A DNA stretch of 64,000 bases from NCBI RefSeq assembly GCF_003846135.1, contig NZ_RHHM01000005.1, forward strand, positions 1 to 64,000, read 5' to 3'. The stretch's first letter is position 1. The number at the start of each line of letters is the position of its first letter. The translations under genes were made by a program, and so were the position numbers. The notes under the pieces were generated by a model. The model was not told the origin of the DNA. It did not search any database and saw nothing but the letters and a program-made list of their open reading frames with translations. The stretch is from Erwinia psidii. GTDB lineage: Bacteria; Pseudomonadota; Gammaproteobacteria; Enterobacterales; Enterobacteriaceae. Below, piece after piece: positions 13,757 to 29,696 of the stretch.

Positions 13757-14170
13757 ATGAAGAAAAAGGGCATGGTGATACTGGCGGCAATACTGCTTTC
13801 GGGCTGTGGAGCCTTATCGGGGAACGCCGGCAATAATCCGCTGACCGATCATAATTATATTCTGAAAAGCGTCGATGGTAAGGTGGTGACGTCTCCCGCC
13901 GGAATGAAGCCAGGTATCAGCTTTTCGCAGGATATGCATGTCAGTGGCGTGATGTGCAATCGTTTCTTCGGTCAGGGTAAGCTGGAACACGGGGTTCTCA
14001 GTGTGCCCCAGATGGCTTCCACCCGAATGCTGTGTATCGACCCAGAACTGAATCAGTGGGAAGCGATTATCGGGAAAATGCTGGTGGCGGGTGCCACACT
14101 GCACCAGGATCGGAACACGCTGACCCTGGAGGGATCGGGGCATTCGCTGGTATACGTGAGAGATAATTAA
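13757..14170 (+). CDS. hslJ: META-domain heat-inducible lipoprotein HslJ
   Basis: A 137-residue lipoprotein: MKKKGMVILAAILLSGC has a clear lipobox (LLSGC). The mature part is a META/HslJ domain (DHNYILKSVDGKVV, GISFSQDMHVSGVMCNRFFG, ASTRMLCIDPELNQWE). In E. coli HslJ is an outer-membrane protein linked to novobiocin resistance and lies elsewhere on the chromosome. It is flanked by terminators on both sides and appears monocistronic. Confidence 0.85.
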   Translation: MKKKGMVILAAILLSGCGALSGNAGNNPLTDHNYILKSVDGKVVTSPAGMKPGISFSQDMHVSGVMCNRFFGQGKLEHGVLSVPQMASTRMLCIDPELNQWEAIIGKMLVAGATLHQDRNTLTLEGSGHSLVYVRDN

Positions 14171-14189
14171 CCGGTATGGTTTGTTCAGA

Positions 14190-14228
14190 AACGGCCCCGA
14201 GTGCTAAATGCAACGGGGCCGTTTTTTT
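14190..14228. terminator. Terminator between convergent hslJ and chaA
   Basis: AACGGCCCC and GGGGCCGTT form a GC-rich stem followed by TTTTTTT on the plus strand. It serves hslJ and overlaps the last two bases of the chaA frame. Only TTTC follows on the minus strand, so termination of chaA by it is less certain. Confidence 0.8.
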
Positions 14229-15324
14229 ACAGCATGACGGTGATCAGATAACCGGCAAACAGGGCCAGATGCGCGGCTCCATTGAGTACGTTTGTACGGC
14301 CAGTGGAGAATGAAATCTGACACAGTAAAAGGGCCGCCACCATCATTACCATTTGCGGTGCATCAAGTCCGAAAATCAATCGCTGTCCGGTCAGGGTGGC
14401 GATGATTGTCACTGCCGGTACGGTCAGCGATATGGTGGCCAGCACCGAACCAAAAAAAAGATTCATCGCCCGTTGTACCTGATTAGCCAGAACGGCTTTG
14501 ATCGCCCCCAGACCTTCAGGAGAGAGGATCAGCAGGGCCACCAGAAAGCCGACAAATCCTTCCGGGGCATTAAGCTGTTCCAGCAGCATTTCCAGCGGGG
14601 GCGCATCGGTTTTGGTGACGGCGATAACCGCGATCAGATGGACCACCAGCCATACGCTGTGCCAGCGGCTGGAATGATCTGACGGTTTCCCGTGATGTGG
14701 ATCGCCATCGTCACTGTCGTCTTCATGCTGATAAACAAACAGACTTTGATGGGTTCGGGTTTGAATAAGCAGAAATACGCCGTACATTGCGGCGGAGATA
14801 CCCGAGATAATCAGTGCCTGGCCGACACTGAAGTCGCCACCGGGCAACGCATTCGGGAACACCAGAACCAGGATCCCAAGTGGAAACAGCGCAATCAGAT
14901 ACTGTTTTACCCCAACGAGGTTGACAAACTGCGTGGCGAATTTACGGCCACCCAACAGCAGGGCAAATCCCACCAGGCCGCAGGTGACAATCATAATGAT
15001 CGAATAGAGCGTATCGCGCATCAGCGCCGGTGCCGCATCACCAGTGGCCATCAGGGCTGAAATCAGGCTGACTTCAAGGATAACCACCGACAGGCTAAGG
15101 ATCAGGGAGCCATAAGGTTCCCCCAGACGATGTGCCAACACGTCAGCATGGCGTACCACGCTGAAGGCACTGAAAAGTATCGCCACCAACGCGATAAGAT
15201 TGATGCCGATGATCACCGGCATGGAACTACTTTGTCCCCAAAACCCTAAAATAACCAGTGCAGCGACCGTCAGCAGCAGCGACGTCTCTTTATGACGGGT
15301 TTTTGTACTATCTAATTCAGCCAA
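14227..15324 (-). CDS. chaA: Ca2+/Na+(K+):H+ antiporter ChaA
   Basis: A 365-residue inner-membrane CaCA-family exchanger that extrudes Ca2+, Na+ and K+ at alkaline pH. Signature stretches are GEPYGSLILSLSVVILEVSL in the first repeat and ALLILSPEGLGAIKAV in the second, joined by an acidic cytoplasmic loop (YQHEDDSDDGDPHHGKPSDH). The start is TTG at 15324, supported by AAGGAG nine bases upstream; protein similarity to E. coli ChaA begins right after it. chaB, which follows chaA in E. coli, is absent here. Confidence 0.95.
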   Translation of the reverse strand: MAELDSTKTRHKETSLLLTVAALVILGFWGQSSSMPVIIGINLIALVAILFSAFSVVRHADVLAHRLGEPYGSLILSLSVVILEVSLISALMATGDAAPALMRDTLYSIIMIVTCGLVGFALLLGGRKFATQFVNLVGVKQYLIALFPLGILVLVFPNALPGGDFSVGQALIISGISAAMYGVFLLIQTRTHQSLFVYQHEDDSDDGDPHHGKPSDHSSRWHSVWLVVHLIAVIAVTKTDAPPLEMLLEQLNAPEGFVGFLVALLILSPEGLGAIKAVLANQVQRAMNLFFGSVLATISLTVPAVTIIATLTGQRLIFGLDAPQMVMMVAALLLCQISFSTGRTNVLNGAAHLALFAGYLITVML

Positions 15325-15355
15325 GGGTATCGTCTCCTTACTTTAGTGAGTCAGG

Positions 15356-15414
15356 GCCTGAGATCCGTCTGTTTAGTATTAACAGACGACATATTGTCAT
15401 TGATTTGCTCAGGC
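15356..15414 (-). promoter_or_regulatory. Nested hairpin in the chaA leader
   Basis: Outer arms GCCTGAG (15356-15362) and CTCAGGC (15408-15414) pair perfectly over 7 bp and enclose a second perfect 7-bp hairpin, GTCTGTT (15367-15373) with AACAGAC (15381-15387). The structure would lie about 30 bases upstream of the TTG start in chaA mRNA, leaving the ribosome-binding site AAGGAG free. A cation- or pH-responsive leader is possible, but nothing in the sequence identifies a known riboswitch class. Confidence 0.35.
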
Positions 15415-15750
15415 ATTATCACACAAGTTACAGTGTATTGAACCATTAATGAATAATTTTGATATTTACTCTTTTTTGCTGTAATAGCTTGTTTTTGTTT
15501 TTTTGCGCCTTATATTCCAATTATCTTTTTCATCATTATGATTTTAAAGTGTTAATTTAATATTTTTCAGCGTGCAGAAATGTAATTAAAGCCTCGTTGT
15601 GGTGGTTTTTTTGGCTAAAAAAAGCATCTTAACCACATATTTTATCAGGAGCTATAAAAGTATGTGAAAAATCAATGTGCTGTTTTTTTTCTCCGCCGTT
15701 AAGTTTTATCTGGCACTGCCGATAACCGGCATAAGGAATATTTTTTCTTT

Positions 15751-15766
15751 TGTGATGTGCATCAAA
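15751..15766 (+). promoter_or_regulatory. Possible CRP site upstream of chaC
   Basis: TGTGATGTGCATCAAA fits the CRP pattern TGTGA-N6-TCACA except for one base in the right arm. It lies about 130 bases before the chaC start. No promoter -10/-35 pair was assigned. Confidence 0.35.
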
Positions 15767-15894
15767 CTTGATTGCCCAGTCTGAAATGGCTTATGGTCAT
15801 AACCGACATTGAAATAAGGCGTTTCCTGGTAATCATTATTCAGGAACTGCCATGCAGGTTTTACCGGGAAACGTGAAGTGGCAGAGGAGGTTCT

Positions 15895-16617
15895 GTGTTA
15901 ACAAGAGATTTCCTGAAAAAAGCAGATTGCCGTACGGCTTTTGGTGACGTTGAGGAATCCCTCTTATGGACCTGTGAACAGCGGGCAGCCTCGCTTGCTA
16001 ACGTTCTGGCGCGTCGCCCGGACAGGAGTCCGGTATGGATTTTCGGGTATGGTTCACTGATGTGGAATCCGGTATTTGAATCTGACGATGTGGCCGTGGG
16101 GACTTTACAGGGCTGGCATCGGGCATTTTGTCTGCGGCTGACAGCCGGACGAGGAAGTGTGACTCATCCCGGCAGGATGCTGGCGCTGAAAGAGGGAGGA
16201 AGTACCACCGGACTGGCATTTCGGCTATCCGAAGCGCAGGTACAGGAAGACCTGGAGTTACTGTGGAAGCGTGAAATGCTTACCGGATGCTATCTTCCGA
16301 CCTGGTGTGAGCTGGAACTGGCAGATGGCCGTCATGTGACGGCACTCGCTTTTGTTACGAATGCATGTCATCCGCTGTATGAAACCGACTCCTGTCCAAA
16401 AACTATCGCCCCGCTGATTGCTCAGGCCAGCGGACCGTTGGGAACCAACGCCCAGTACCTTTATTCACTGGAGCATGAACTGCAAAAACGCGGCCTGTAT
16501 GATGATTGCCTCACCGATTTAGTGGAGCGAGTACGGGAGCTACAGCAATGCAGTGATCATGGGCTGGCAGGTCGGGAAATGACCTGCTGTGGATCAATTA
16601 ACCATGTGCCCACATGA
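15895..16617 (+). CDS. chaC: Glutathione-specific gamma-glutamylcyclotransferase ChaC, altered C-terminus
   Basis: A 240-residue ChaC enzyme degrading glutathione to 5-oxoproline and Cys-Gly. The substrate-loop motif is WIFGYGSLMWNP, with LTAGRGSVTHPGRMLALKEGG, LWKREMLTGCYLPTW and the conserved GPLGTNAQYLYSLEHEL. The GTG start follows GAGGAGG and matches the E. coli N-terminus (MxTRDFL). After LVERVRELQQ the last ~23 residues (CSDHGLAGREMTCCGSINHV..) do not look like ChaC. They are read from the antisense of the kinase gene, with which chaC overlaps by 61 bases tail-to-tail. The original 3' end was probably replaced when the T6SS-like operon arrived. Confidence 0.92.
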   Translation: MLTRDFLKKADCRTAFGDVEESLLWTCEQRAASLANVLARRPDRSPVWIFGYGSLMWNPVFESDDVAVGTLQGWHRAFCLRLTAGRGSVTHPGRMLALKEGGSTTGLAFRLSEAQVQEDLELLWKREMLTGCYLPTWCELELADGRHVTALAFVTNACHPLYETDSCPKTIAPLIAQASGPLGTNAQYLYSLEHELQKRGLYDDCLTDLVERVRELQQCSDHGLAGREMTCCGSINHVPT

Positions 16618-18008
16618 CTTACCTCCAGCTGTTGCCATCGCACTGCGTTAGCGCTTTGCAACTCAATTTTATAGCTGCCTGCTGAAAGGTTAAGTGAAGC
16701 AAAACCGTTGATGTCCGGCTTCACATCCACAGGTTTACCATCCACGGTTAACCGTTCAGTGTTACTCATTTTCAGGTACACCCTTGCCATCAGAGTTCGG
16801 GTGTCCGCACCTGAAAAGGAGGGCTGCGAGGAGCCGTTCTCCTGCGAGATTTCGCCCACCTCCTGCCCCTTAGCGGGCGCATCATTGCGGTTCATCAACA
16901 CTGTCGCCAGCGCTATGATCACGCCCAGTAGCGCCGTTACGCCAGTGACGGCCATCTTTTTTGAGATGTGGTGTACTGGCCTGGTGGTGACAGTTTCCAT
17001 TTTCGCATCCGTCCCGGTGGGGGTGACCCCCTCAGGTTCAGCAAACGACGGTGGTTCAGCGCCAGGTCCCAGGAGAGGAGTGGCGGTGGCGACCAGCTCC
17101 TCTACCGTGCCGACGGAAAGTTCTATTAGCGACGCCAGCTCATCAATGCTCTGCGGGCGATCCTGTGGTTTCATGGCCAGCGAACGATCGATGGCGTTTA
17201 ACAGGGGGAGTGAGAAACCCGGTGGACGTAACAGGGTCAGCGGCTGGTAGCGATCCTCAATGCAGCGTACCACGCTGACCGGCGGCGGTGACCCCATGAC
17301 CAGCGTGTGCATTACGGCACCCAGCGCGTAGATATCTGTCCAGGGTCCCTGATCGTTATTGCTGTCTTCGCTATACTGCTCAATCGGCGCATAGCCCGGT
17401 TTGAGCATGATTTCGGTTTCATCAGAAAGGTTACCTATCTCCTTACGGGCTGAACCGAAATCAAGTAGCACCGGCAACTGATTGTCCTGAATCTGAATAT
17501 TATCCAGAGAGATATCCCGGTGCAGATAACCTGCCTGGTGGATGGTGTTAATGGCCCCGAACAGAGGGGGTAACAGCTGACGTATCCAGGCATCGGTCAG
17601 CGTCTCCGGGCTGTTGTGTTGCCACTCTTTAAGCGTCATACCGCTGTAGTAGAGCGTGCCCATATAGGCTGTGCCGTTCTCTTCCCAGAAACGCAGAACG
17701 TGCAGCAGTCCCGGGTGATTAAAGCGCGCCAGCAGCCTTGCTTCGTGGATAAAACTGTTGAGCCCCGCGTTAAACAGTTTCTGACAGCGCTCCCCACGTA
17801 TGACGATATTCTGATGATCGTGGCGGGTAGCCAGCGAGACGGGAAAGTATTCTTTGATAGCAATAGTCCGCTCAAGAAGATGATCCCAGGCACGATAAAC
17901 AATGCCAAAGCCTCCTCCTCCAATGACCTCTTTTATTTCAAATTCATTGAAACGGTGTCCCGCCGGAAGTGCAGCGGATACATTTTTTGTTTTATCGTTT
18001 GCCGACAT
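16557..18008 (-). CDS. Membrane-anchored Ser/Thr protein kinase of a T6SS-like operon (PpkA-like kinase domain)
   Basis: A 483-residue Hanks-type kinase. The glycine loop GGGGFG is at residues 30-35, the ATP-binding Lys52 is in AIKEYF, the catalytic loop HRDISLDN at 163-170, DFG at 183-185, and the P+1 region in GYAPIEQY. All catalytic residues are present. A proline/acid-rich linker leads to one membrane segment (MAVTGVTALLGVIIALATVL), then a small periplasmic domain (LTVDGKPVDVKPDINGFASL). It has no von Willebrand domain, unlike Pseudomonas PpkA. In T6SS the kinase phosphorylates the FHA protein and PppA reverses it; both partners are in this operon. ATG at 18008 is chosen for AGAGAG eight bases upstream. 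Confidence 0.85.
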   Translation of the reverse strand: MSANDKTKNVSAALPAGHRFNEFEIKEVIGGGGFGIVYRAWDHLLERTIAIKEYFPVSLATRHDHQNIVIRGERCQKLFNAGLNSFIHEARLLARFNHPGLLHVLRFWEENGTAYMGTLYYSGMTLKEWQHNSPETLTDAWIRQLLPPLFGAINTIHQAGYLHRDISLDNIQIQDNQLPVLLDFGSARKEIGNLSDETEIMLKPGYAPIEQYSEDSNNDQGPWTDIYALGAVMHTLVMGSPPPVSVVRCIEDRYQPLTLLRPPGFSLPLLNAIDRSLAMKPQDRPQSIDELASLIELSVGTVEELVATATPLLGPGAEPPSFAEPEGVTPTGTDAKMETVTTRPVHHISKKMAVTGVTALLGVIIALATVLMNRNDAPAKGQEVGEISQENGSSQPSFSGADTRTLMARVYLKMSNTERLTVDGKPVDVKPDINGFASLNLSAGSYKIELQSANAVRWQQLEVSHVGTWLIDPQQVISRPASP

Positions 18009-18059
18009 AGTAAGCACTCTCTGAGAGCTGATGCCCTGGATTATCCGGTAATAAGCAGA

Positions 18060-18998
18060 TCAGTTAACGGTGCGCCAGGCACCAATGGTTGGGTCAGCCA
18101 GACCGACATGCGGGCCATCAACCAGCAGCACATTTATCTTTATTTGCTGATCCACCACTGAATTCCATGCGTGAAGTACCGACGCCACCCGCTGTTTCAG
18201 CAGGAGGGGATCGTCAGCCTCAGACCGCTTCATCTTGAGCAGCAGCGATCCCTCAAATGACCAGACATGCAACACAGGGTCAAATATCAGTACCAGCCAG
18301 GAGTCCGGTATGGCCTTTTTGCTGACGATAAGACGCTGATTATTTGCCGAGACAATGTTCAACTCTTCCGGCGCCGGATGCACCTTACGTAAAGGGAACC
18401 CCTGATAAAATTGCACGGGAACCTGTTGATTTTTACCTTTCACGGAGAGTGTCAGCACGCTCTTGCCTTCAAGCCAGCCGCCGGATGAGCAGGCGAGATT
18501 TTTGTCTTCAGGAATAAAAAGTGCTTTGCCATTTCCCTCCCATGAGGTACGAAAGTAACAGCCTGTCGGAAGGGTGAAACGCGGTAATGGCGCCCGACTG
18601 GCAGGTTGTGCCGCACCGGGCGTGATGTTAGCTGCTTCGCTGGCATCTGCAATTACAACAGGCCGCCAGCTCTGCTCTTTCGCTGCCGTACCAGTAGCCA
18701 CTACCGCCCCCTTATCGTTGGTCATCTGCCAGGGCATTTCTTCAAGTTTGCCACACTGATTTTGCAGTAATGTGCCCACGCGTGGCAGAAAGCTGTTCAG
18801 TATGTTGGATTCCATGTTATTGCCAGAGACGATGCGTAACTGGATGTTTTCCTTACACCAGTCGCGCGGAGCACTGCTTGGCACATTATCGATAAACACC
18901 TCCAGCTCCATGCTGGGGGAGTAAACCACGCGATAATCCTCCGCCTGTACGGCAGTCGCTATCAACAGTGTGGCAGTGACAGGCAACCCAAATTTCAT
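18060..18998 (-). CDS. Unknown exported protein in the T6SS-like operon
   Basis: A 312-residue protein starting MKFGLPVTATLLIATAVQA, a clear signal peptide cleaved before EDYRVVYSP. The ATG at 18998 has AAGGA close upstream and avoids overlapping pppA; an earlier in-frame ATG adds 8 residues. The mature protein has several cysteines (DWCKENIQL, NQCGKLEE, TGCYFRTSWEG, LACSSGGW), suggesting disulfides and a periplasmic location. I do not recognise a domain; it does not show the TagO/VasI pattern. Its place between phosphatase and kinase suggests a sensor or ligand-binding partner of the kinase's periplasmic tail, which is inference. Confidence 0.75.
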   Translation of the reverse strand: MKFGLPVTATLLIATAVQAEDYRVVYSPSMELEVFIDNVPSSAPRDWCKENIQLRIVSGNNMESNILNSFLPRVGTLLQNQCGKLEEMPWQMTNDKGAVVATGTAAKEQSWRPVVIADASEAANITPGAAQPASRAPLPRFTLPTGCYFRTSWEGNGKALFIPEDKNLACSSGGWLEGKSVLTLSVKGKNQQVPVQFYQGFPLRKVHPAPEELNIVSANNQRLIVSKKAIPDSWLVLIFDPVLHVWSFEGSLLLKMKRSEADDPLLLKQRVASVLHAWNSVVDQQIKINVLLVDGPHVGLADPTIGAWRTVN

Positions 18999-19012
18999 AG
19001 TGTTCCTTGATG

Positions 19013-19789
19013 TTATTTGCACGGCGGCAGAAACCGGGCTGAGTCCGCCATCAACTGTATCAGCGTGGCTTCCTGAGGTGAGCCGATCCAGATGGCCACC
19101 GCGCTTAAATTATCTTCTTTTTTACTACGATCAATTGCCGTATGCATCAGGGCCAGCCACTCTTCAGGTGAGTTGACCATGCGGAGCGCCTGTTCCATTT
19201 CTTCAGGCGTCAGATTGCACCAGAAACCGTCAGTGCAGACCAGAAAAGCATCGCCATCTTCCAGCAGATGTATGCCACTGTAGCTGGCCGGCTGTTGGCC
19301 GTCTGAACCCAGTGCATTATAAAGTAAATTACTGTTTATACCGGTATTATCAACACCAGCATCCTTTAATTGCTGAGCGAGGCTGTGATCGCGGGTGAAG
19401 GAGTGAATATAACCCCGGCGAAAGTGGTAAACGCGACTGTCTCCGGCGTGCATCCACCAGCATTGTTGAGAGAGACGATCGATAAACAGGGCGGCGAGTG
19501 TGGTACTCATCTGACTGAAATTTACCATCGTCTGCTGTGCCTGCCGGACGGCCTGTTCGGCATTTTCTACCCAACATTCGGTCTCCACGGGGGTGATAGG
19601 GAGGTCGTTTGCCACTGCCGAGAGCAACACATCTTTCGTAATACGGGCGGCAATTCCCCCACCCGCGGTGCCGGCTACGCCATCACAGACCAGAAAACAG
19701 GCGCAGTACTGTCCAAGCACCGCGCCTGTTTCATCCTGATTATTCTCCCGTGCGCCCTGATGCGACGTGGTTGCATAATTGATGTTCAT
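19013..19789 (-). CDS. pppA: PP2C-family protein phosphatase PppA of the T6SS-like operon
   Basis: A 258-residue cytoplasmic metal-dependent phosphatase. PP2C motifs appear in order: GARENNQDETGAV, FLVCDGVAGTAGGGIAA, WWMHAGDSRVYHFRRG, TRDHSLAQQLKDAG, AFLVCTDGFWCNL and KKEDNLSAVAIWIG, giving all metal-binding aspartates. In known T6SS post-translational pathways PppA dephosphorylates Fha and opposes PpkA. Its ATG overlaps the stop of the FHA gene by 4 bases (ATGA), so the two are translationally coupled. Confidence 0.9.
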   Translation of the reverse strand: MNINYATTSHQGARENNQDETGAVLGQYCACFLVCDGVAGTAGGGIAARITKDVLLSAVANDLPITPVETECWVENAEQAVRQAQQTMVNFSQMSTTLAALFIDRLSQQCWWMHAGDSRVYHFRRGYIHSFTRDHSLAQQLKDAGVDNTGINSNLLYNALGSDGQQPASYSGIHLLEDGDAFLVCTDGFWCNLTPEEMEQALRMVNSPEEWLALMHTAIDRSKKEDNLSAVAIWIGSPQEATLIQLMADSARFLPPCK

Positions 19790-20952
19790 TCTTCTTCCGG
19801 CCGGGACTGGGAGTCTTTGTACTGATTGACTTCCATATCATAGGCTTGCAGGAATGCGTTGCCAAAAAGCGTGTGGAAGTCGTCTTCTATCTCACCTGAC
19901 ATCTTCTGATAATGACGAAGAAAATAGTCCCACAGCGCGGCTTTTTTCATCATTCCCGGACTGATGCGTGGCATGTTTCCGTCGCGGCGGGCGAAGTCTT
20001 CCAGCCGCTGCGGGTTGAATGATTGCAACATGGCCGCAATAATGGCCCGGATCCCGGCAATCATTCCCAACTGATGTGCCTGCAAATCTACCAGAGCATC
20101 CCGAACGGCCTGTTCAGGCGGCATAAAGCCGGGCATCTCGCTTTGATAGATTTGCATCAGTACCGTTTTACCGGAGGGCAGGATCTTGAACGGGTTGTTA
20201 GCCTCATTGAGGATCATCGTCATTTCGGCTTTCACCCCACGTTTAAGGATGGAGCGTGAGGAGAGCAGGGCAACGGTCCCCTGTGAGAAAAGGCTGAGCA
20301 TCCTTCCGGTGATGCGCATCTGATCTTCCGTCAGTGTCGGTTTATCGGCATGATAATCCAGCCCCATTCCGTCCATCAGCGCGGCGAGCAGGCGCTGTTC
20401 ATTGCCAGGCGAAGTGGTGCGTTCTGACGGCATCATCGCATGATTAACCGGGTCAATACTTAACCGGGCGACGTTCTGCCGGGCTTGACGGGCGGATAAT
20501 TGCTCCTCGGTGTGCAGCTCAAAAGTCTCCATCAGCACCGCTTCCTGATGACGTGAAATGCCCAGCGGATCGGACGCAGAGTTATCATCATGGGTAAACA
20601 GAGTCAGCGGGTCGATATCGCTGAAAGCCGTCTCCTCCTCGTGTGCCGGGTCACTGACCCGAATCTGGTAATGGCCAATGTTTAGTACGTCAGCATGCTG
20701 TAACAAAATCTGGCTTCCCCGCGCCAGCGGGACACGATTATGCACTACGGCAGTGACGCTGCCATGATTGGTCAGACGACAATCACCATTGCTGGCAACA
20801 TGCACCACTGCCTGTAAACGTGAAATAGCACGGTCTTCATCCGGGAGTACCAGATCGTTGTCGACGCTCCGGCCAATGGTGCCGCCGGGTGGCACAAAAT
20901 CACAGCAGGTAAGGGGTGTTCCATTTTTGCTTTCAACAATGGTAAATCGCAT
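19786..20952 (-). CDS. tagH: FHA-domain T6SS protein TagH (Fha)
   Basis: A 388-residue protein. The N-terminal FHA domain (about residues 1-100) has GGTIGRSVDNDLVLPD, ISRLQAVVH and NHGSVTAVVHNRVPL, the phosphothreonine-binding loops. A variable linker leads to the T6SS-Fha C-terminal domain (LLAALMDGMGLDYHADKPTL, NPFKILPSGKTVLMQIY, MMKKAALWDYFLRHYQKMSG). Fha is the phospho-switch that promotes T6SS assembly when phosphorylated by PpkA. It is 41 bases after tagF and coupled to pppA. Confidence 0.9.
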   Translation of the reverse strand: MRFTIVESKNGTPLTCCDFVPPGGTIGRSVDNDLVLPDEDRAISRLQAVVHVASNGDCRLTNHGSVTAVVHNRVPLARGSQILLQHADVLNIGHYQIRVSDPAHEEETAFSDIDPLTLFTHDDNSASDPLGISRHQEAVLMETFELHTEEQLSARQARQNVARLSIDPVNHAMMPSERTTSPGNEQRLLAALMDGMGLDYHADKPTLTEDQMRITGRMLSLFSQGTVALLSSRSILKRGVKAEMTMILNEANNPFKILPSGKTVLMQIYQSEMPGFMPPEQAVRDALVDLQAHQLGMIAGIRAIIAAMLQSFNPQRLEDFARRDGNMPRISPGMMKKAALWDYFLRHYQKMSGEIEDDFHTLFGNAFLQAYDMEVNQYKDSQSRPEEE

Positions 20953-20993
20953 ACGCTTTTCCTGAAGCCAGGGCCATCACAGGCCAAGAGACG

Positions 20994-21692
20994 CTATTCA
21001 AACATGGGGGGATAGAGTCCATGCCGCCCTGTTTGTGCCATAGCGGCCGGGTTGAATAGTTGCGAGAACAGCTGAGCAGTAAGGTTACCGCTGTGTTTGT
21101 GACTGGTAAGAGGATAGCCATCACTCTGATTGGTCCACCAGTAGCTGGTGTACCCTGTTGGATCAAAATGTGCGGCCACTTCCGGCCAGGCAAGCGTGCA
21201 GGGCATATTCTGATAGCCAATGATATCCATAATATCTGAACGACCATTGTCGGGGATCGCCAGCGATGGCAGGTTATCCAACGCCTGATCCAGTTGGTTG
21301 ACCGTGAAAGGTACTTTCACCGCCTGATACATTGTGGCACCCAACAGCTGAAACCAGTCGCCGCAGATCATCAGTTGAGCCGGGTGCCAGTGCTTCAGCG
21401 CAACACGCTGCAGTACCAGTAGCGGCCATGCCCGTCCCACGCGATCTCTTGAAGGCATAAGACAGCCAATTTGCACTTGCTGCACGCCAAGCGTTGCCGG
21501 CATAGCAAAGTTCCACACTGGCGCATGCCTGAATTGTTCGCTAACGGCGTCACTGTGATGATGCCAGTGTGTCAGGCCCAGCTGGAACCAGTTAGACCAG
21601 TTGGTAACAATGTTCTCAGGAAGATGGCGTTGCAAAAAGTCACCGGTACCCGGCAGCTTGCCATACCATCCGGGCTGTTTTTTATCTGCCAT
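20994..21692 (-). CDS. tagF: T6SS-associated repressor protein TagF
   Basis: A 232-residue protein with the TagF signature WYGKLPGTGDFLQRHLPE near the N-terminus, then CLMPSRDRVGRAWPLLVL and TSYWWTNQSDG. In Pseudomonas and Agrobacterium TagF binds Fha and holds T6SS off independently of phosphorylation. ATG at 21692 is preferred: GAGG lies eight bases upstream and the gene then starts two bases after the tssM stop. Confidence 0.88.
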   Translation of the reverse strand: MADKKQPGWYGKLPGTGDFLQRHLPENIVTNWSNWFQLGLTHWHHHSDAVSEQFRHAPVWNFAMPATLGVQQVQIGCLMPSRDRVGRAWPLLVLQRVALKHWHPAQLMICGDWFQLLGATMYQAVKVPFTVNQLDQALDNLPSLAIPDNGRSDIMDIIGYQNMPCTLAWPEVAAHFDPTGYTSYWWTNQSDGYPLTSHKHSGNLTAQLFSQLFNPAAMAQTGRHGLYPPMFE

Positions 21693-21694
21693 GA

Positions 21695-23812
21695 TCAATC
21701 CTCACCGGACGGATAATCGTCAGAAATCATTGGAATGGCAATCGAGCTGCTTGCGGCATGCTGGGGTTCACTGTCTGTATTTTTCAACATTTTATGCATG
21801 AGCGAATTATCGCGCGCATAAGGTGAGGTCTGGATTTGCCTGTCGAGCAGCTGGCTGAGGTGCCAGTCAAGCTGCTGAAGTTGCCTGGTGGTTACGCTAT
21901 TTGGCAGCGTACGTTGCAGATTTTGCATCACCCAGCCCCGTAAAAATTCGCCATCGTAACTGCGTGGTTGATACAACATCTGATAGGCCCGCAAGGCATT
22001 ACGGCTGAATTCACTGTCCCCACCTTTGTCATTCCGTAAAGCAAGGGTAATGGCCTGTGCCACACGAGGCAGCAGCAGGCTTCTCAGCGCGTTTTGATAC
22101 AACCCCCACGCTGCGTTACCAATCTGCATACCCTGATATAGTCCTCCCCGCATACTCAGGGGTGGGTCATTGAGCGAAAAATGCGAACTTTGTGGTAATG
22201 CAACCAAATCGTTAAGGAAAGGTAGCAGATCAATAATTTCTCCGCGATTGTGGTTCTGAAATAGTGTGGCCTGCTGCTCAATGGGGACCAGACGGCTATC
22301 CACCTGTTGCAGATAGTGCTTATTTTGGTAATAGCTGGTGGTCCATAAACATGTGGCAGCGACCAGCGCCATCATCATCAAGGCATAACCTGCCCAGTGC
22401 ATCTGCCGGTTGCGACGTTCCCACAGGGGATCGCTACCTGCGAGGCTACTCTCCTTAAAAACCAGATCGCTGAGCAGGGAGTGAATAAAATAGCTCTGGC
22501 CTTTGGTCGCCGGAATGGGGGCGTGGCGGGTGACACTGTTCCAGTTGGCAATGGTTTGATCGGCGTCCTGCGGCAGTTGTAGCTTCCGCGTTAGCTCACC
22601 CATAATACGGTCAAAAGGCAATCCCTCCTGAGTACCACTGGTGAAAAACAGTCCGCGAGGAACCCAGGGCATTTTGCCATTTTCTGCGGTGAAAACGATC
22701 TCGAAATATTCAGCCAGCAAGGGTTGCAGCGAGGCAAACTCCTGTGGAAACAGGAAACAATCCGCACGGAGGCTCAGGTCTTTCTCTCTGGCCATTTTGT
22801 CCGCCAGATTATCCCGCAGGCGCTGGGTCAGCTGACGGAACTGCTGTTCAAAGTATTTTTCCTGTGGGATGGCATTTTGCTGGTCTGGTTCAAGGGGAAA
22901 GGAGAAGCCCCATACTGCATCACGCTGTGCTTTATCCAGGTTAGCGTAATAGCTCATAAATCCCTTCAGCAGGTCGGTCTTGGTCACCATCACGTACACC
23001 GGGAAGTGGATACCGGTTTGCTGATGAAGTTCTGCCATGCGCTGACGCAGGGCATTAGCCTGAGTATAGCGGGCCTCAGCGGAATCACTTAGCAGGTCTG
23101 CGACGCTGATGGTTATAATCACGCCGTTGATGGGTTGCCGCGCGCGGTAGCGTTTCAACAGGGCGATAAATGTTTGCCATTCACCAGCGTCTCTTTCGCG
23201 CTGGCTCTCCTGTAGGGTGTAACGTCCTGCCGTGTCCAGCAAAACGGCGTCACGGGTAAACCACCAGTCACAATGGCGTGTGCCACCAACGCCGCGCAGC
23301 GCCGTTTTGCCCAGGCTGTCACTGAGTGGAAATTCCAGCCCGGAATTGATCAAGGCGGTGGTTTTACCTGCACCCGGCGCGCCAACAATCATGTACCAGG
23401 GGAGCTGGTAAAGGTACTGAGCGCTGAAGCGCTGCAGCCAGGCGTACTGTTTATTTTTCTGCGGCGAACTGAACTGGATCCTCTTCAACAGCATTGCCGC
23501 TTCGCTAAAGCGACTATTCAGTAGCTCGCCGGTTGCCTCCTGTTCGGCATAATCGATGCTATGTTTTTGTAAGTTGTGCAGCAGTTTGCTGTTAAACCAT
23601 GCGCGGTAAAGCTGCGGGATCAGCTGCAATAAAATCCACAGGAAATAGCACAACCCAATGGCAATCTGGCGGTGGATGCCACTCTCCAGCCAGCGATTTC
23701 TGCCAAATGTGACCTGTGGGCCGATTGTCCAGATCAACGCAGACAGTGCGGTAATCCCCAAAAAACTCCACAGCAGTCGACTGAAGATGATTGTGGTGAA
23801 GAATGGCGGCAT
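21695..23812 (-). CDS. tssM: Short TssM (IcmF/VasK) inner-membrane protein
   Basis: A 705-residue T6SS membrane-complex protein. Two N-terminal membrane segments (about residues 9-31 and 48-67) precede a cytoplasmic NTPase domain with Walker A VGAPGAGKTTALINSG and DTAGRYTLQ; a third membrane segment (YALMMMALVAATCLWTT) starts near residue 470. Ordinary TssM proteins have about 1,100-1,200 residues. This one ends about 215 residues after the last membrane segment, so most of the large periplasmic region, including the part that contacts TssJ, is absent. The stop lies within a tightly coupled operon and no homology resumes after it, so it looks like a native short form rather than a frameshift. 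Confidence 0.9.
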   Translation of the reverse strand: MPPFFTTIIFSRLLWSFLGITALSALIWTIGPQVTFGRNRWLESGIHRQIAIGLCYFLWILLQLIPQLYRAWFNSKLLHNLQKHSIDYAEQEATGELLNSRFSEAAMLLKRIQFSSPQKNKQYAWLQRFSAQYLYQLPWYMIVGAPGAGKTTALINSGLEFPLSDSLGKTALRGVGGTRHCDWWFTRDAVLLDTAGRYTLQESQRERDAGEWQTFIALLKRYRARQPINGVIITISVADLLSDSAEARYTQANALRQRMAELHQQTGIHFPVYVMVTKTDLLKGFMSYYANLDKAQRDAVWGFSFPLEPDQQNAIPQEKYFEQQFRQLTQRLRDNLADKMAREKDLSLRADCFLFPQEFASLQPLLAEYFEIVFTAENGKMPWVPRGLFFTSGTQEGLPFDRIMGELTRKLQLPQDADQTIANWNSVTRHAPIPATKGQSYFIHSLLSDLVFKESSLAGSDPLWERRNRQMHWAGYALMMMALVAATCLWTTSYYQNKHYLQQVDSRLVPIEQQATLFQNHNRGEIIDLLPFLNDLVALPQSSHFSLNDPPLSMRGGLYQGMQIGNAAWGLYQNALRSLLLPRVAQAITLALRNDKGGDSEFSRNALRAYQMLYQPRSYDGEFLRGWVMQNLQRTLPNSVTTRQLQQLDWHLSQLLDRQIQTSPYARDNSLMHKMLKNTDSEPQHAASSSIAIPMISDDYPSGED

Positions 23813-25143
23813 CAGGATTTATCCTTCTGACTGTCTGCTGTTACTGTTACAGGGAAAAGAATAATTTCCACACGACGGTTTTGTGCCCGGTTTTCATCAC
23901 TGTCATTTGGTAACAGTGGATTGCTGTTGCCGAGCCCTTCACTACGGATAACATGCCCCGGTTTTTGTATCTGCAACATCAGCGTACTGATACCGCGTGC
24001 CTGTGCCAGTGAGATGTCGTGGTCAGATGTGAAGTGGGAGACTGGCATCGGACGATCGTCGGTGTAGACCCTGACCACCACCATGCCCTGAATATTATCC
24101 ATAGCAGCCGATACACGGGTAATAATCGCACGCCCCCGTGGCGTCAGCTCGGTACTTGCTTCGCGAAACAGTCTGTCAGCGGCAATGATAACCTTGCTGC
24201 CGTTGCTGGTGTCAGTGACATCCACTTGACGGCTGATAATGAGGTCATCAAGGCGTTGGCGGATATCCAGTAAAGCCTGTGAAGCGTGGCTGAGTTTGCC
24301 CGGTTGCATCCTCGGCAGTGGTGTCTGCCAGATAGCGCGTAACAGAGGCCCGCTGGTGTTGTTCAGCTGCCAGTTAAAAGCGGAGTAGATGAGACTGGCA
24401 ATAAATGCGGTGATGGTGATACAAACCCACAGTGGCACAGGAGGGCACCACCGCGCATTTTGGCTGGTCGCGGTTAATGGCTGAGGGACTGGGGTGCTTT
24501 CCGTTAACCCACGGGTATCGCGGATCAGCTGAGCCAGGCGTTCCCGCATTGCCTCACGTTGCAGGTGGCCTTGTTCCATTGCCCGATAACGCCCCTCATA
24601 GCCAAGCAGCAGGCAATAGTTAATGACTTCCAATAGCCAGAGATGTTGAGCTGGTGTCTGCGAAATGCGAGACAGCAACTGAAAAACTTTTTCGCCACCC
24701 CAGCTTTCGTTATGAAAAGTCACCAGTAATCCATTACCCGACCAGACGCTTCGGCTTCCCCATGGGGTTTGTCCCGCAGCTTCATCCAGTACACTGCACA
24801 GGCAGTAACGTGCACCAATAATCATATCAAAGGGTAAACCGGCTTGTTTGCTACGTCGTTCAAACTGGCGGACTTCATCAACGAGTTGCTGACGCAGCAT
24901 GACAGGATCGTCATGGGTTGCAGCCGTGCGGATCTGCACGATGGCATTCAGCAATGGTGCGGCAGCTGTCATTAACCGATTTTCCTGGCCGACTGAGAGA
25001 GACGTGTCAGGGTGGTGTTCCTTATTCATCTGGTTTACTGTCTCTGCTGTAAGACCCTGCTGGGTAGGCATTTTGAACTGGTCAGACGCTGAACTGTTTC
25101 CTTTATGTGGTTCGTTGAGCCTATTCCAGAATCCAGGTTGCAT
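23812..25143 (-). CDS. tssL: TssL (DotU) fused to an OmpA-like peptidoglycan-binding domain
   Basis: About 443 residues. A DotU domain (LLNAIVQIRTAATHDDPVML, DEVRQFERRSKQAGLP, CSVLDEAAGQTPWG, NYCLLLGYEGRYR) is followed by one membrane segment (LWVCITITAFIASLIYSAF) and a periplasmic OmpA-type domain (IIAADRLFREASTELTPRG, VRVYTDDRPM, ENRAQNRRVEIILFPV). TssL dimers pair with TssM to form the T6SS trans-envelope base; the OmpA part anchors it to the cell wall. ATG at 25143 is chosen over a TTG at 25179; it overlaps the lipoprotein gene by 23 bases. The stop shares one base with the tssM start (TGATG). Confidence 0.88.
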   Translation of the reverse strand: MQPGFWNRLNEPHKGNSSASDQFKMPTQQGLTAETVNQMNKEHHPDTSLSVGQENRLMTAAAPLLNAIVQIRTAATHDDPVMLRQQLVDEVRQFERRSKQAGLPFDMIIGARYCLCSVLDEAAGQTPWGSRSVWSGNGLLVTFHNESWGGEKVFQLLSRISQTPAQHLWLLEVINYCLLLGYEGRYRAMEQGHLQREAMRERLAQLIRDTRGLTESTPVPQPLTATSQNARWCPPVPLWVCITITAFIASLIYSAFNWQLNNTSGPLLRAIWQTPLPRMQPGKLSHASQALLDIRQRLDDLIISRQVDVTDTSNGSKVIIAADRLFREASTELTPRGRAIITRVSAAMDNIQGMVVVRVYTDDRPMPVSHFTSDHDISLAQARGISTLMLQIQKPGHVIRSEGLGNSNPLLPNDSDENRAQNRRVEIILFPVTVTADSQKDKS

Positions 25144-25630
25144 TGTTGTTGTCACGACAGGCTTTGCTTTTATCGCCAACGTTCACGCAGATTTTTTTGC
25201 TATTTTTACGAACTTTTGGCCGATCGCTTTTAAGTGTGGCGTCATACAGAACACTTTTTACTCCAGCTTTAAATGGTACATAGCCGGTCAGCAATTGCCC
25301 ATCGTCATCTGCTATCGCCAGCCAGTGGTTTTCCACCTTACCCAGCACGGTGAACGGTTTGCCATTTTCAAGATAGCGAATAATCTTGCCATCAAAGCCA
25401 GGCCTGTCCATCACTGATGCATTATACAATGCCCGATAAGTTTCATTGACTGGCGTAAAAGAGTGTGGCGCCTCAATGGCATGGCGATGGGTTAACTGGA
25501 CTCCATCAACGACAGAGTTAATGAGTGTATCATCGGTAATCGGTGGGGTTGTTTGACAACCAGTCAGAAACAGCGCGGTCAGGAAGCTGAACGCGACGCT
25601 TAATTTCACATCATTTCTGGTGAGCATCAT
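25121..25630 (-). CDS. SH3-domain lipoprotein, first gene of the T6SS-like operon
   Basis: A 169-residue lipoprotein: signal sequence VAFSFLTALFLTGC has a lipobox (LTGC). The middle resembles a bacterial SH3 (SH3_3) domain: YRALYNASVMDRPGFDGKII, then GKPFTVLGKVENHWLAIADD and GQLLTGYVPFKAGV. Two cysteines near the C-terminus (ICVNVGDKSKAC) could form a disulfide. It is not recognisable as TssJ, the usual T6SS outer-membrane lipoprotein, but occupies a position where an outer-membrane anchor would be useful. That substitution is a hypothesis. It leads the operon and overlaps tssL. Confidence 0.8.
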   Translation of the reverse strand: MMLTRNDVKLSVAFSFLTALFLTGCQTTPPITDDTLINSVVDGVQLTHRHAIEAPHSFTPVNETYRALYNASVMDRPGFDGKIIRYLENGKPFTVLGKVENHWLAIADDDGQLLTGYVPFKAGVKSVLYDATLKSDRPKVRKNSKKICVNVGDKSKACRDNNNATWILE

Positions 25631-26325
25631 AACTAAGCCTTATATTTCACAAGCTAAATCCCAAATACGCACAGCAGTCCGAAGATAAAAATGACCGCTG
25701 CGCATTAAAAATATGCTGATTTATATGAAGATAAATTTCATGCCAGTTTACCTTAGGCTTTTAGGAATGGAAACAATTGAGGCGTACCACTTTACATGTT
25801 ATTGGCCTCTCAGAGGGAGATAGTGCCGTAATGCCATTTCAAATAAGAGACAATGGTTAGCAATATTGATTATTCGTTTGATGTCCGATGCTTCGGGGCC
25901 ATGTGCGGGGGGGACTGGCCTGCGGTTGAGCACCGCCGTATCAGCGGGAAACACATCAGCCCTGGCTGAAGAAGGGGGGGGCACAGGGTTGATCATTGCT
26001 TCTTACCGCACCTGGGCGGCTAACAGATTATGTTGATAAGCCACCAGATGGTTAGCAGCCAGTACTCTTATATTAACCGGCCCTGTCACGGTCACCGGCA
26101 TCACCATCCCTGACACAGTGGCATTTTTTCATCAGACTCTTCCTGTTGTGAAATGCTCCCGGCTCTTGATGATAATCAGATGGTCTGTCAGTGAGTTATC
26201 TCTGCCCATTGACCGAAAAGAAGCGCTGGCTGGTGGGCGCACACGGGCAAAAATGTTAAGCTGGTCATGTTTTGAGGTCCTGAGCTACGTGTAACTTTGC
26301 CCTGACGGTGGGCAATGATGAGGTT
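25631..26325. other. Long spacer between the T6SS-like operon and ychO
   Basis: About 695 bases between divergent genes. The first 170 bases next to the lipoprotein gene are AT-rich and probably hold the operon promoter. The rest has only short frames, such as one at 25799-25996 on the minus strand whose product starts MINPVPPPSSARADVF and which I do not recognise. ychN, present before ychO in E. coli, is absent. The region probably contains the right-hand junction of the inserted operon and decayed DNA. Confidence 0.4.
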
Positions 26326-27759
26326 ATGAGAAGAGTAAATCGTACGGTATCCCTTCATCGCAGACTCATTTTGCTGGTTGCCGCGTTCAGCTGCCTTCAG
26401 GTGGCAGATGCCACCACTCCCGGTACCCAACTTGCCGATACACCTTTTGACGATCCTGCCCGTTTCAGTCGCTCACTTCCCGATTTGGGCAGTGCCGCAT
26501 CATCCGATGCGGCGTTCGAAAAGCGTGTGGCACAGGCGATGAAAAGCATCGGTGAAGCCAGCATGAACAGTGATGATGATAAATCACTGGGTAGCTCTGC
26601 CGGGCAGTGGGCTTTTGACCATTTTCGTGATGAGGCTACCAGCCGGGCAGAAAGTGAAGGCAGGCAACTGCTTTCACCCTATGGTCGCGCCAGCCTGTCG
26701 CTGGACGTTGACAGTCGGGGGAATTTCGATGGTACATCGGCGCAACTGGTGACGCCGTGGCGGGATAATTACGCCGGGCTGACCTTCAGCCAGATTGGCA
26801 TTCAGCAGAGCAGTAATGGCCTGTCAGCCAGCGCCGGACTGGGCCAGCGTTGGCTGACAGGCGGCTGGCGGCTTGGCTATAACGCGTTTATCGACGACCT
26901 GGTGGCGTCAGGACAACAGCGGGGATCGCTGGGCGCGGAAGCATCCGGTGACTTTCTGCGTTTCTCGGCTAACTACTACCAGCCGCTATCCGGCTGGCGT
27001 GACAATACCGAGATCACGCAGATGCGTATGGCACAAGGTTATGATATTACCACTGAAGGCTTTCTGCCGTTTTACCGGCAACTTGGGGTTTCACTGAGCT
27101 ACGAGCAGTATTTTGGCGATAATGTTGGCCTGTTTAACAGTGGCACCTATGGCAATAATCCTGCTGCCGTTGAGCTGGGGATCAATTATACCCCCATGCC
27201 GTTGTTTACGCTTACCGCGTCAAGAAAAACGGCAGATACCGGTGAAACTCAGGATCAGCTGGGTCTGAAAATGAATTATCAGATTGGAGTAGCATTGAGT
27301 AAGCAATTGTCAGCCAGTAACGTCGCAGCCTCCCGATCCCTGAGTGGCAGCCGTTACGATCCTGTCAAGCGCAATAACACGCCGGTAATGGATTTCCGCC
27401 AGCGTAAAACCCTGTCGGTGTTCCTTGCCACGCCACCCTGGCAGCTTCATCCGGGTGAAGCATTGCCCCTGAAGCTACAAATCCGCCATGCTAATCCCAT
27501 CAAAGCTATCAGCTGGCAGGGGGACACGCAGGCGTTGAGTCTGACCTCTGCGGCGAACAGCAGCGATCCGCAGGGCTGGAGTATCATTATTCCACAATGG
27601 GATAACTCACCTGATGCTGCCAACGCGTATCATCTGTCGGTAACGCTGGAAGACAGCCGGCAACAGCGGGTAACGTCGAACTGGATCACCATTAAACTGG
27701 CTCAGCCAGTGGCGATGGATAACCGTGACGATAATCAGTTTGATGTGATGGCTCCCTGA
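26326..27759 (+). CDS. ychO: Inverse autotransporter / invasin-type beta-barrel protein YchO
   Basis: About 477 residues from ATG 26326 (an in-frame GTG at 26308 is possible but lacks a ribosome-binding site). A signal peptide (LILLVAAFSCLQVADA) precedes a helical stretch, then an intimin/invasin-type barrel (GRASLSLDVDSRGNFDGTSA, GLGQRWLTGGWRLGYNAFID, LSYEQYFGDNVGLF, AAVELGINYTPMPLFTL), then one Ig-like domain (PWQLHPGEALPLKLQIRH..., SVTLEDSRQQRVTSNWITI). Unlike long adhesins it has a single passenger domain, like E. coli YchO (464 residues). It likely sits in the outer membrane; its role in adhesion is not certain. The chaC..ychO order is conserved apart from the inserted operon. Confidence 0.9.
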   Translation: MRRVNRTVSLHRRLILLVAAFSCLQVADATTPGTQLADTPFDDPARFSRSLPDLGSAASSDAAFEKRVAQAMKSIGEASMNSDDDKSLGSSAGQWAFDHFRDEATSRAESEGRQLLSPYGRASLSLDVDSRGNFDGTSAQLVTPWRDNYAGLTFSQIGIQQSSNGLSASAGLGQRWLTGGWRLGYNAFIDDLVASGQQRGSLGAEASGDFLRFSANYYQPLSGWRDNTEITQMRMAQGYDITTEGFLPFYRQLGVSLSYEQYFGDNVGLFNSGTYGNNPAAVELGINYTPMPLFTLTASRKTADTGETQDQLGLKMNYQIGVALSKQLSASNVAASRSLSGSRYDPVKRNNTPVMDFRQRKTLSVFLATPPWQLHPGEALPLKLQIRHANPIKAISWQGDTQALSLTSAANSSDPQGWSIIIPQWDNSPDAANAYHLSVTLEDSRQQRVTSNWITIKLAQPVAMDNRDDNQFDVMAP

Positions 27760-28085
27760 CAGGCAACCGTATCAACGGCAGTGGCGGTGCTCCCGTCTGC
27801 CCGACAGGGCACCCGGCATATGAGATGCGGTGCAAAGGTTTTTTGTTCGGCTGTTGCAATGTGGAAGGGGGATGACCGGCTCGCCCGCCTTTGTGGAAGG
27901 GGGATGACCGGCTCGCCCGCCTTTGGCCGGCGCACCGGGAGTTTGCTGGTCCTTCCTGTGGCACAGCGCATTGGTGTGCCCTTTATTTCCTCAGTGTGAT
28001 GAGAATAAGCTGCGCGAAAGGTTAAAAACAGAGATTCTTCATGACGCTTGTACCCTCAGTGATAACGGGGTTAAGCGCCACCCTG
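27760..28085. other. Intergenic region after ychO with a tandem duplication
   Basis: A 326-base convergent gap between ychO and dsbB. It holds a perfect 32-bp tandem duplication (27861-27924) and otherwise nothing recognisable. In E. coli the narXL/narK/narGHJI nitrate genes lie beyond ychO; none is present here. Confidence 0.5.
27861..27924. repeat. Perfect 32-bp tandem direct repeat
   Basis: The 32-base unit at 27861-27892, beginning GTGGAAGGGGGATGACCGGC, is repeated without a mismatch at 27893-27924. The two copies are adjacent with no spacer. It lies outside any gene. Confidence 0.95.
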
Positions 28086-28619
28086 TCATCTACGGGTAAA
28101 CAGCTCGCGTTTTTTTTCTCTGAAGCACTGTGCTACCAGTACCAGTAAACCAATGACCATAAAAACGGCGAAAATAATAAGCAGCCACTGAGGCATTTCC
28201 AGTGAGAATAACGACCACTGTTTTGCCGCGCAGTCACCGGAAGCGACAAAAACGGAAGGCAACCATTTGTCAAGTGGCAACCAGTCCGGGAACCGGACTG
28301 CGAAGTCGCAGGTGGTGAAGGGGTTTGGATGCAGCTGGATCATGGTGTGCTCCCAGGACAAACGCAGTCCTGTATATGCGCTGTAAAGCCATATCATGAT
28401 TGCCACCCAGCGCAGTGGGGTTTTGGGGGCGATGGCACCCAGTAGTCCTGCTCCCATTACACCAAACAGCGCACAGCGCTCGTAGATACACATCACGCAG
28501 GGTTTCAACAGCATCACATGCTGGAAATAGAGCGCGACCATTTCCAGACAAAAGGCCGTGAATGCCATTAACAGCCAGGCACCACGGCCACGGGAACAAC
28601 CATTTAAATATCGCAACAT
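28086..28619 (-). CDS. dsbB: Disulfide bond formation protein DsbB
   Basis: A 177-residue inner-membrane quinone reductase that reoxidises DsbA. The two redox pairs are visible: Cys-X-X-Cys in [17 protein letters not shown], and the second periplasmic-loop pair in [20 protein letters not shown] and [12 protein letters not shown]. Four membrane helices are present. The ATG at 28619 ([20 protein letters not shown]) matches E. coli DsbB; the longer frame adds 22 unconserved residues. In E. coli nhaB lies between dsbB and fadR; it is missing here. Confidence 0.96.
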
Positions 28620-28928
28620 AATCAATCCATGTATTGGACACCAAACCGGCAGTGTAAACCAAAAGCGGCGGTGTTCCAGCGGCACCGCGCAAAATTTTCA
28701 TCACCTGAAGGGTTTAAAAGCAATCTCACAACGCATTTATCTGTTTTTGTGCCTCATTGTTAATGAAAGTTAACTTTCAGATGCAAAAAATTAAGGACCT
28801 CATTATTTTGGGGGAATTAAGCGCAAGAATGTGGATTTTCATCTGTGGCCAGTCTAGGTGATGCAGAGGGCATCTGATATTATGAGCGGAATTTTTGCAC
28901 ATTGTGAATGTAACGGAAACAAAACCCT
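28620..28928. other. Divergent spacer dsbB/fadR; nhaB absent
   Basis: A 309-base spacer that must carry the promoters of dsbB and fadR. No piece of the Na+/H+ antiporter gene nhaB, which sits here in E. coli, is recognisable. Confidence 0.5.
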
Positions 28929-29648: not shown

Positions 29649-29696
29649 CAGGCCATAGCCGGCTGAGGGTAATCCGGCTACGCTGACAGGATGAAA

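Follow-up and report, generated by a model that had tools for sequence, protein, structure and literature searches.

Can the membrane and regulatory proteins of a type VI secretion system (T6SS) be kept for a job of their own, apart from the machinery that fires it? The question is raised by an eight-gene operon of Erwinia psidii at 16557-25630 on the minus strand of a 64,000-nucleotide stretch of DNA (the window; positions 1 to 64,000 of contig NZ_RHHM01000005.1, assembly GCF_003846135.1). We read its products as an inner-membrane complex that is maintained, gated by a kinase and unable to fire, and that probably does work of its own at the cell envelope, and give this reading a probability of about 0.5. 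As the first-pass annotation of this DNA had suspected, incomplete T6SS loci of Pantoea and Erwinia were already known: De Maayer 2011 named this locus T6SS-2 and called it "partial and potentially non-functional" (PMC3235180), Shyntum 2014 described the same kind of locus as PA T6SS-3 of P. ananatis (PMC3942780), and it is also in print in PMC5561584. Here and below, statements about published work refer to the sections of each paper that were consulted. In those sections the T6SS-2 papers do not name RtkS or TagV, and do not describe the truncation that TssM proteins of the locus have in common, selection, or carriers lacking T6SS-1 or TssC. These points, together with the recognition of a whole phosphorylation switch, are what the present analysis adds to a locus that is itself known.

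Gene content of the operon and of the genome

The open reading frame (ORF) listing of the window contains eight open minus-strand frames in this interval, all intact, and family matches bear out the gene set that had been proposed from the letters alone. The operon thus has the composition of the published partial cluster, eight syntenous genes that include a kinase, a phosphatase, an FHA protein, IcmF and DotU. In order of transcription the genes are:

25121-25630, minus strand: tagV-like SH3 lipoprotein, 169 amino acids (aa); NF041850 match, lipobox Cys25 and Trp103 invariant in 45/45
23812-25029, minus strand: tssL (DotU) with an OmpA-like domain, likely 405 aa from ATG 25029 (open frame up to 25179); profile match and ortholog alignment
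21695-23812, minus strand: short tssM, 705 aa, Walker A GAPGAGKTT intact, without the C-terminal half; TIGR03348 match
20994-21698, minus strand: tagF (TagF_N), 234 aa; profile match
19786-20952, minus strand: fha/tagH, 388 aa, with a short linker between the FHA domain and the C-terminal domain; profile match and alignment
19013-19789, minus strand: pppA, PP2C phosphatase, 258 aa; profile match and active-site residues
18060-19022, minus strand: rtkS by PDB sequence and fold matches, ATG at 18998 as alternative start, four Cys invariant in 46/46
16557-18017, minus strand: ppkA, transmembrane Ser/Thr kinase with a periplasmic domain of the RtkS-binding type; profile and PDB matches

As called, the frames overlap by 59, 1, 4, 4 and 10 nucleotides (nt) or are separated by gaps of 41 and 42 nt. 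Orthologous TssL proteins are mostly about 404-420 aa long (a few frames reach 501) and align from about residue 51 or later; the most likely TssL start is therefore the ATG at 25029, giving 91 nt between tagV and tssL.

The absence of firing genes from the window, also claimed in the first-pass annotation, was confirmed by tblastn with 105 ORFs taken from the four regions of the same genome that contain TssC. These queries include TssA, TssB, TssC, Hcp, TssE, TssF, TssG, TssJ, TssK, ClpV-like AAA proteins and a VgrG; the kinase paralog lies outside the set and was located separately at C8:98320. In the window they matched only seven of the eight operon genes and a flanking gene at 11032-11523, so that with own-genome proteins as queries no sheath, tube, baseplate, TssA, TssJ, TssK, VgrG or ClpV gene was detected there. 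Of the core genes TssA-TssM and the VgrG/PAAR genes that a complete T6SS has near the locus, only TssL and half of TssM were found, PAAR not being tested. The operon cannot fire alone.

Firing machinery is present elsewhere in the genome, where TssC genes were found on four contigs (C8, C33, C10 and C15). The cluster on C8, here called T6SS-1, holds TagV, TssJ, TssK, TssL, TssM (1207 aa), TagF, TssA, TssB, TssC, Hcp, Fha (623 aa), PppA, an RtkS-like protein, ImpE, TssE, TssF, TssG, a ClpV-like AAA protein and PpkA. Having its own TssL and TssM, it is not a cluster that uses only the TssL/TssM pair of the operon. The C33 cluster is a second, more distant one, and the C10 and C15 TssC regions end at contig ends shortly past TssL-sized frames. 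All eight operon genes have paralogs on C8, in the same order and with 33-68% identity, and the order is also collinear with Serratia-type clusters. The operon therefore reads as a complete cluster from which TssJ-TssK, the C-terminal half of TssM, TssA-TssB-TssC-Hcp with the genes that follow, and ImpE-TssE-TssF-TssG-ClpV are missing. Fha is similarly reduced, measuring 358-427 aa in 48 orthologs against 623 in T6SS-1, with most of the linker lost and the C-terminal domain still 66-67% identical between the two clusters.

A predicted threonine-phosphorylation switch

The exported protein encoded between pppA and ppkA, which the first-pass annotation had left without an identity, is by sequence and model matches RtkS, the periplasmic activator of PpkA. 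Its sequence matched PDB entry 9k0l with E 6.4e-37, and its structural model (pLDDT 80) matched chains titled 'crystal structure of Rtks' or 'Rtks and Ppka complex' at E 2e-20 to 4e-18, the best fold match being 9k1u ('Rtks and Ppka complex'; E 2.4e-20, TMt 0.93). No paper on the 9k0l structure was found in the literature searched. It is also 40% identical over 324 aa (E 8e-84) to a 328-aa protein at the equivalent place in the T6SS of another genome (G025); the TssM of that T6SS shares 98.6% identity with its Serratia marcescens 106R counterpart. The kinase domain of PpkA matched PpkA 5hnv (E 4e-148), and its periplasmic domain matched the kinase chain of 9k1u (E 2.5e-14). These results, taken together, therefore indicate that the operon holds the entire Serratia switch RtkS-PpkA-PppA-Fha-TagF, the gene set of the Serratia-type threonine phosphorylation pathway.

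The catalytic and binding motifs, reported as intact from the E. psidii sequence, are invariant or nearly so among orthologs. Kinase residues K55, D168, N173 and D186 are kept in 46/46, as are PP2C residues D19, D36, G37, D117, D187, D226 and N227 (Q18 in 44/46), and Fha R28 and S44 are kept in 48/48. Fha Thr226 (46/48) and Thr263 (47/48) are candidate phosphosites, either of which might correspond to Serratia Thr438; a sequence search of the PDB with Fha gave nothing at E 0.01. In Serratia, PpkA depends for its stability on RtkS, with which it interacts; Fha is phosphorylated by PpkA and dephosphorylated through PppA; and phospho-Fha overcomes TagF, a blocker of membrane-complex assembly (PMC6082577).

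The membrane base

TssM of the operon covers positions 1-633 of the 1168 in TIGR03348. In all 24 aligned orthologs conservation ends near residue 670 and is followed by a short variable tail; in both comparisons, the C-terminal region that contacts TssJ is absent. The protein ends roughly 180 residues past the place of the third membrane helix, a position taken from alignment to T6SS-1, as a hydropathy scan of the protein itself passed two helices only. What remains is well kept: conservation of the nucleoside triphosphatase region is 87.3%, against 88.4% in T6SS-1, and TssM scores 637 bits on the T6SS model and 56 on the type IVB model. The fold of the short TssM was set aside as evidence, the model having pLDDT 66 and pTM 0.49, with no Foldseek match in the PDB at E 0.001 and mostly weak GTPase-like hits; a sequence search of the PDB gave nothing at E 0.01.

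The OmpA-like domain of TssL scored 25.8 bits, slightly below the Pfam cut-off of 27.2. It is the least conserved part of TssL, with a mean identity of 64% against 85% in T6SS-1 (ten hand-picked genomes). We take a conserved Asp and the Arg of an LSxxRA motif to be the peptidoglycan-binding residues of this domain. The Asp is present in 48/49 T6SS-2 TssL proteins; the Arg is present in 11/49 and replaced in 38/49, whereas it is found in 43/43 proteins of full T6SSs. Cell-wall binding by T6SS-2 TssL, to judge from these residues, may be altered. The lipoprotein matched NF041850 with 176 bits over the full model length, under the 300-bit equivalog cut-off, and we call it TagV-like from its sequence and place.

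The C-terminal half of TssM is the link to TssJ at the outer membrane, and in Serratia TagV, a lipoprotein of the outer membrane, keeps part of the T6SS activity going when TssJ is absent, although no binding to TssL or TssM was seen (PMC7614798). Since both TssJ and the TssM C-terminus are missing, a channel to the outer membrane is not expected. Thus the earlier proposal of a kinase/phosphatase-gated trans-envelope complex is doubtful for its reach across the envelope; a complex of the inner membrane, which the TagV-like protein might connect to the outer membrane or cell wall, fits better.

Distribution and selection

T6SS-2 TssL was present in 35/37 Erwinia genomes. In 34 of the 35, TssM was a single short frame of length 685-757, where T6SS-1 has 1199-1221; in the other (G215) it was split, as has been published for E. 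pyrifoliae. All eight genes were found in 30/34 fetched Erwinia loci, the other four fitting the published E. amylovora, E. pyrifoliae and E. tasmaniensis type, and in 14/15 loci from seven other genera, where one lacked tagV; the operon is not disrupted in most relatives. Among the best 80 of 187 named loci, 54 were T6SS-2, with record names of Erwinia, Pantoea, Mixta, Winslowiella, Izhakiella, two Enterobacter and Enterobacterales bins. Fifty of the 54 matched all eight genes, and two of the other four were cut by contig ends. Within the 50, three had a frame that was broken or cut, and one more (L164) was interrupted by an in-frame stop. Frame breaks were listed by two screens of 103 pooled loci, in which the named set shares genomes with the Erwinia and other-genus sets. 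The kinase sequence of one further genome (G219) was intact. Two TssC-positive Pantoea drafts (L140 and L147) have breaks in tssL, and L140 also in ppkA, possibly reflecting sequence quality; a TssC match is split in both genomes as well, and in that of L147 it is the sole one. In a 392-genome draw from the family, short TssM occurred in 20 of the 68 matching genomes and in 8 of 154 genera; T6SS-2 is therefore a locus of one group.

The ratio of non-synonymous to synonymous substitution rates (dN/dS) was computed for all pairs with dS 0.05-1.0, a set that includes distant pairs near saturation and leaves out the split G215 TssM. Medians were 0.13-0.26 for the eight operon genes, 0.136 for chaC and 0.08-0.19 for T6SS-1 genes. 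Eighteen nearer, hand-chosen pairs (dS 0.18-1.05) provide a better measure, and in these the pooled eight-gene dN/dS was 0.035-0.115, with chaC mostly lower still. Seven of the 18 pairs have a member in which TssC was not found (TssC-null) and gave 0.066-0.098; one of the 18 contains L142, a locus outside the TssC search. In each gene dN/dS was below 1, the largest value for a single pair being 0.62. The operon is under strong purifying selection, in agreement with the maintained function argued for in the first-pass annotation.

Persistence without T6SS-1 or TssC

T6SS-1 TssL was missing from 11 of the 35 Erwinia carriers. TssC was absent from one of the 35 (G214) and from none of the 15 carriers of other genera; TssK was also not found in G214, these two being the sole core genes searched there. 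The search was extended to 36 named T6SS-2 carriers out of 54, chosen without L142, without loci close to the Erwinia set and without a few others, and TssC was absent from five of them: P. latae, P. stewartii, P. conspicua, P. eucrina Russ and M. mediterraneensis. In these five the search was for TssC only. In three of the TssC-null carriers (G214, P. latae and P. eucrina Russ) all eight genes are intact, and dN/dS estimated on their own branches is 0.026-0.079. Thus the operon can persist without sheath genes. The first-pass annotation had offered two roles, one in support of a T6SS elsewhere and one separate from it. As the operon persists without T6SS-1, and in some genomes without TssC, we lean to the second and think that the operon does something at the cell envelope instead of assisting T6SS-1.

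Alternative explanations

The operon could instead be an auxiliary module, in which the kinase, phosphatase, Fha, TagF or TssL/TssM tune or seed T6SS-1 or another complete cluster in the same cell. We consider this rather unlikely, but most T6SS-2 carriers do possess some TssC, one of the observations that weigh against an independent job. TssC was found in 49/50 carriers (35 Erwinia and 15 others), in 8/8 genomes of the genus of G130 (four of them within the 50) and in 31/36 named carriers, some shared with the 50; the well-kept Fha C-terminal domain also speaks for an auxiliary role. In Erwinia, however, TssC is almost universal (36/37 genomes), so that its co-occurrence with the operon says little, and neither the 11 carriers without T6SS-1 nor the three intact, similarly constrained TssC-null operons fit a helper well. 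The other three TssC-null operons are damaged: that of P. stewartii (L149) lacks tagV, that of M. mediterraneensis (L164) has a stop in tssM and that of P. conspicua (L155) a frame change in pppA. Damage was thus seen in 3/6 TssC-null and 2/31 TssC-positive carriers in the same search (Fisher p 0.022, post hoc; p 0.115 when P. conspicua is left out of the damaged group). The P. conspicua shift was first noticed by eye, having been missed by a coverage screen; a uniform second screen of the pooled loci flagged it and no further TssC-positive case. Own-branch dN/dS of P. conspicua was 0.128 against 0.032 for its sister, partly through the shifted pppA frame. Commoner damage in TssC-null carriers would fit a link to other T6SSs, and the operon may decay faster without sheath genes. 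Drafts may miss genes or carry sequence errors, and pairwise dN/dS averages over time before TssC was lost. It is for these reasons that independence is held at even odds only.

That the operon is functionless and slowly decaying, a suspicion voiced in the 2011 paper, is improbable and already disfavoured by the selection results. Some losses do point that way and likewise count against the reading that we prefer. The E. amylovora-type clade (4/34 Erwinia loci) has lost at least four genes, namely tagV, pppA, rtkS and ppkA, and in two cases also fha; the tssM frame is broken in G215, and there are scattered breaks elsewhere. TssL and TssM also evolve faster than in T6SS-1: in matched pairs, dN/dS was 0.183 against 0.069 for TssL (26 pairs; 2.7x less constrained) and 0.171 against 0.103 for TssM (40 pairs; 1.7x), while TagV was 1.3x less constrained (11 pairs) and TagF hardly different (46 pairs). 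Against decay stand the complete gene sets of most Erwinia, other-genus and named loci, the dN/dS values below 1 in every gene and the active-site residues, invariant or nearly so. As to origin, a recent partial duplication of T6SS-1 inside Pantoea/Erwinia, the published view, would account for the eight collinear paralogs, and in the 2011 IcmF tree T6SS-2 branches from T6SS-1 (PMC3235180). In our TssM tree, however, the 26 T6SS-2 rows form one clade (support 100), which lies outside a clade (support 100) joining Erwinia T6SS-1 with T6SSs of other genera of the family. The split therefore looks older, and a recent duplication is very unlikely. The tree holds 62 of 93 rows after hand thinning, without the split G215 TssM, and was made by a quick method with SH-aLRT support only; the long T6SS-2 stem (0.58) advises caution on placement.

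Comparison with known systems and a possible mechanism

The T6SS-2 described in 2011 has the same eight syntenous genes in Pantoea and E. billingiae, with four genes in E. amylovora and E. pyrifoliae and an icmF frameshift in E. pyrifoliae, as found here (PMC3235180). The Serratia marcescens switch (PMC6082577) and TagV (PMC7614798) share components and order with the operon, which keeps a TagV-like gene without TssJ, recalling the TssJ-independent activity that TagV supports in Serratia. The Serratia switch, in contrast, gates a complete firing machine, whereas the operon has nothing downstream of the membrane base and half a TssM. Homologues are named in the Serratia papers, of RtkS in Pantoea sp. 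and E. amylovora and of TagV in P. ananatis, E. amylovora and E. billingiae, and these may or may not be the T6SS-2 genes. For Agrobacterium it has been described that TssL is a substrate of PpkA, that TssM alters its shape with ATP and that Fha binds (PMC3953482). The same four protein families occur here, and the spacing of R30 and S46 in the Agrobacterium FHA domain equals that of R28 and S44 in the operon Fha, but the Agrobacterium switch ends in Hcp recruitment and the operon has no Hcp. Type IVB IcmF and DotU are distant homologues of TssM and TssL, and differ in that the operon TssM scores far higher on the T6SS model. No knockout of the T6SS-2 cluster was found in the literature searched, subscription papers lying mostly outside it, and the E. 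amylovora T6SS work, in the sections consulted, left T6SS-2 out.

The operon is best explained as what remains of a complete Serratia-type T6SS cluster after deletions that left the gene order unchanged. TssL, a short TssM, the TagV-like lipoprotein and all parts of the threonine-phosphorylation switch would have been kept, while TssJ, TssK, sheath, tube, baseplate and ClpV would have gone. If the switch works as in Serratia and Agrobacterium, periplasmic RtkS would hold or activate PpkA, which would phosphorylate Fha and perhaps TssL, with PppA reversing the reaction. Phospho-Fha would then lift the inhibition by TagF and bring TssL-TssM into an active, nucleoside triphosphate-dependent state, with an output presumably independent of firing. 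A more specific version, to which we give somewhat less than an even chance, is a stand-alone, non-contractile, phospho-gated envelope complex, a sensor or transporter, that was exapted and has been kept in at least five genera for some purpose other than firing. Should the complex work in the absence of a sheath, the membrane parts of a T6SS and their threonine-phosphorylation switch can exist independently, and a cluster regarded since 2011 as probably dead gains a different standing. Carriers without TssC, such as P. latae, P. eucrina Russ and Erwinia G214, would then be well suited to studying what RtkS senses and how TssL-TssM acts where nothing is fired.

Flanks and a conserved promoter-like element

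The 3′ ends of ppkA and chaC are convergent and overlap at 16557-16617, and chaC lies inside the fetched stretch in 47/49 T6SS-2 loci. Foreign origin could not be argued from composition, the GC content of the operon being similar to that of its flanks, and an Rfam scan of 14000-30000 gave no match above the gathering score. One further feature precedes the operon:

25716-25781, minus strand: promoter-like element, core pattern at 25745-25779; alignment and pattern scans

This 66-nt block upstream of tagV is conserved across genera (alignment showing 11 of 15 chosen sequences). It resembles a sigma-70 promoter with a TAAACT/TAGACT -10, although a sigma-70 consensus scan did not list it. A strict core pattern occurred once in the window and in none of 100 shuffles, and was found in 56 of 195 loci, all of them T6SS-2. 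With a relaxed pattern it was found in at most 45/49 T6SS-2 loci, an upper bound as a few matches lie elsewhere in the locus only. The element is kept even in loci that have lost tagV (L051, L053, L149 and L161).

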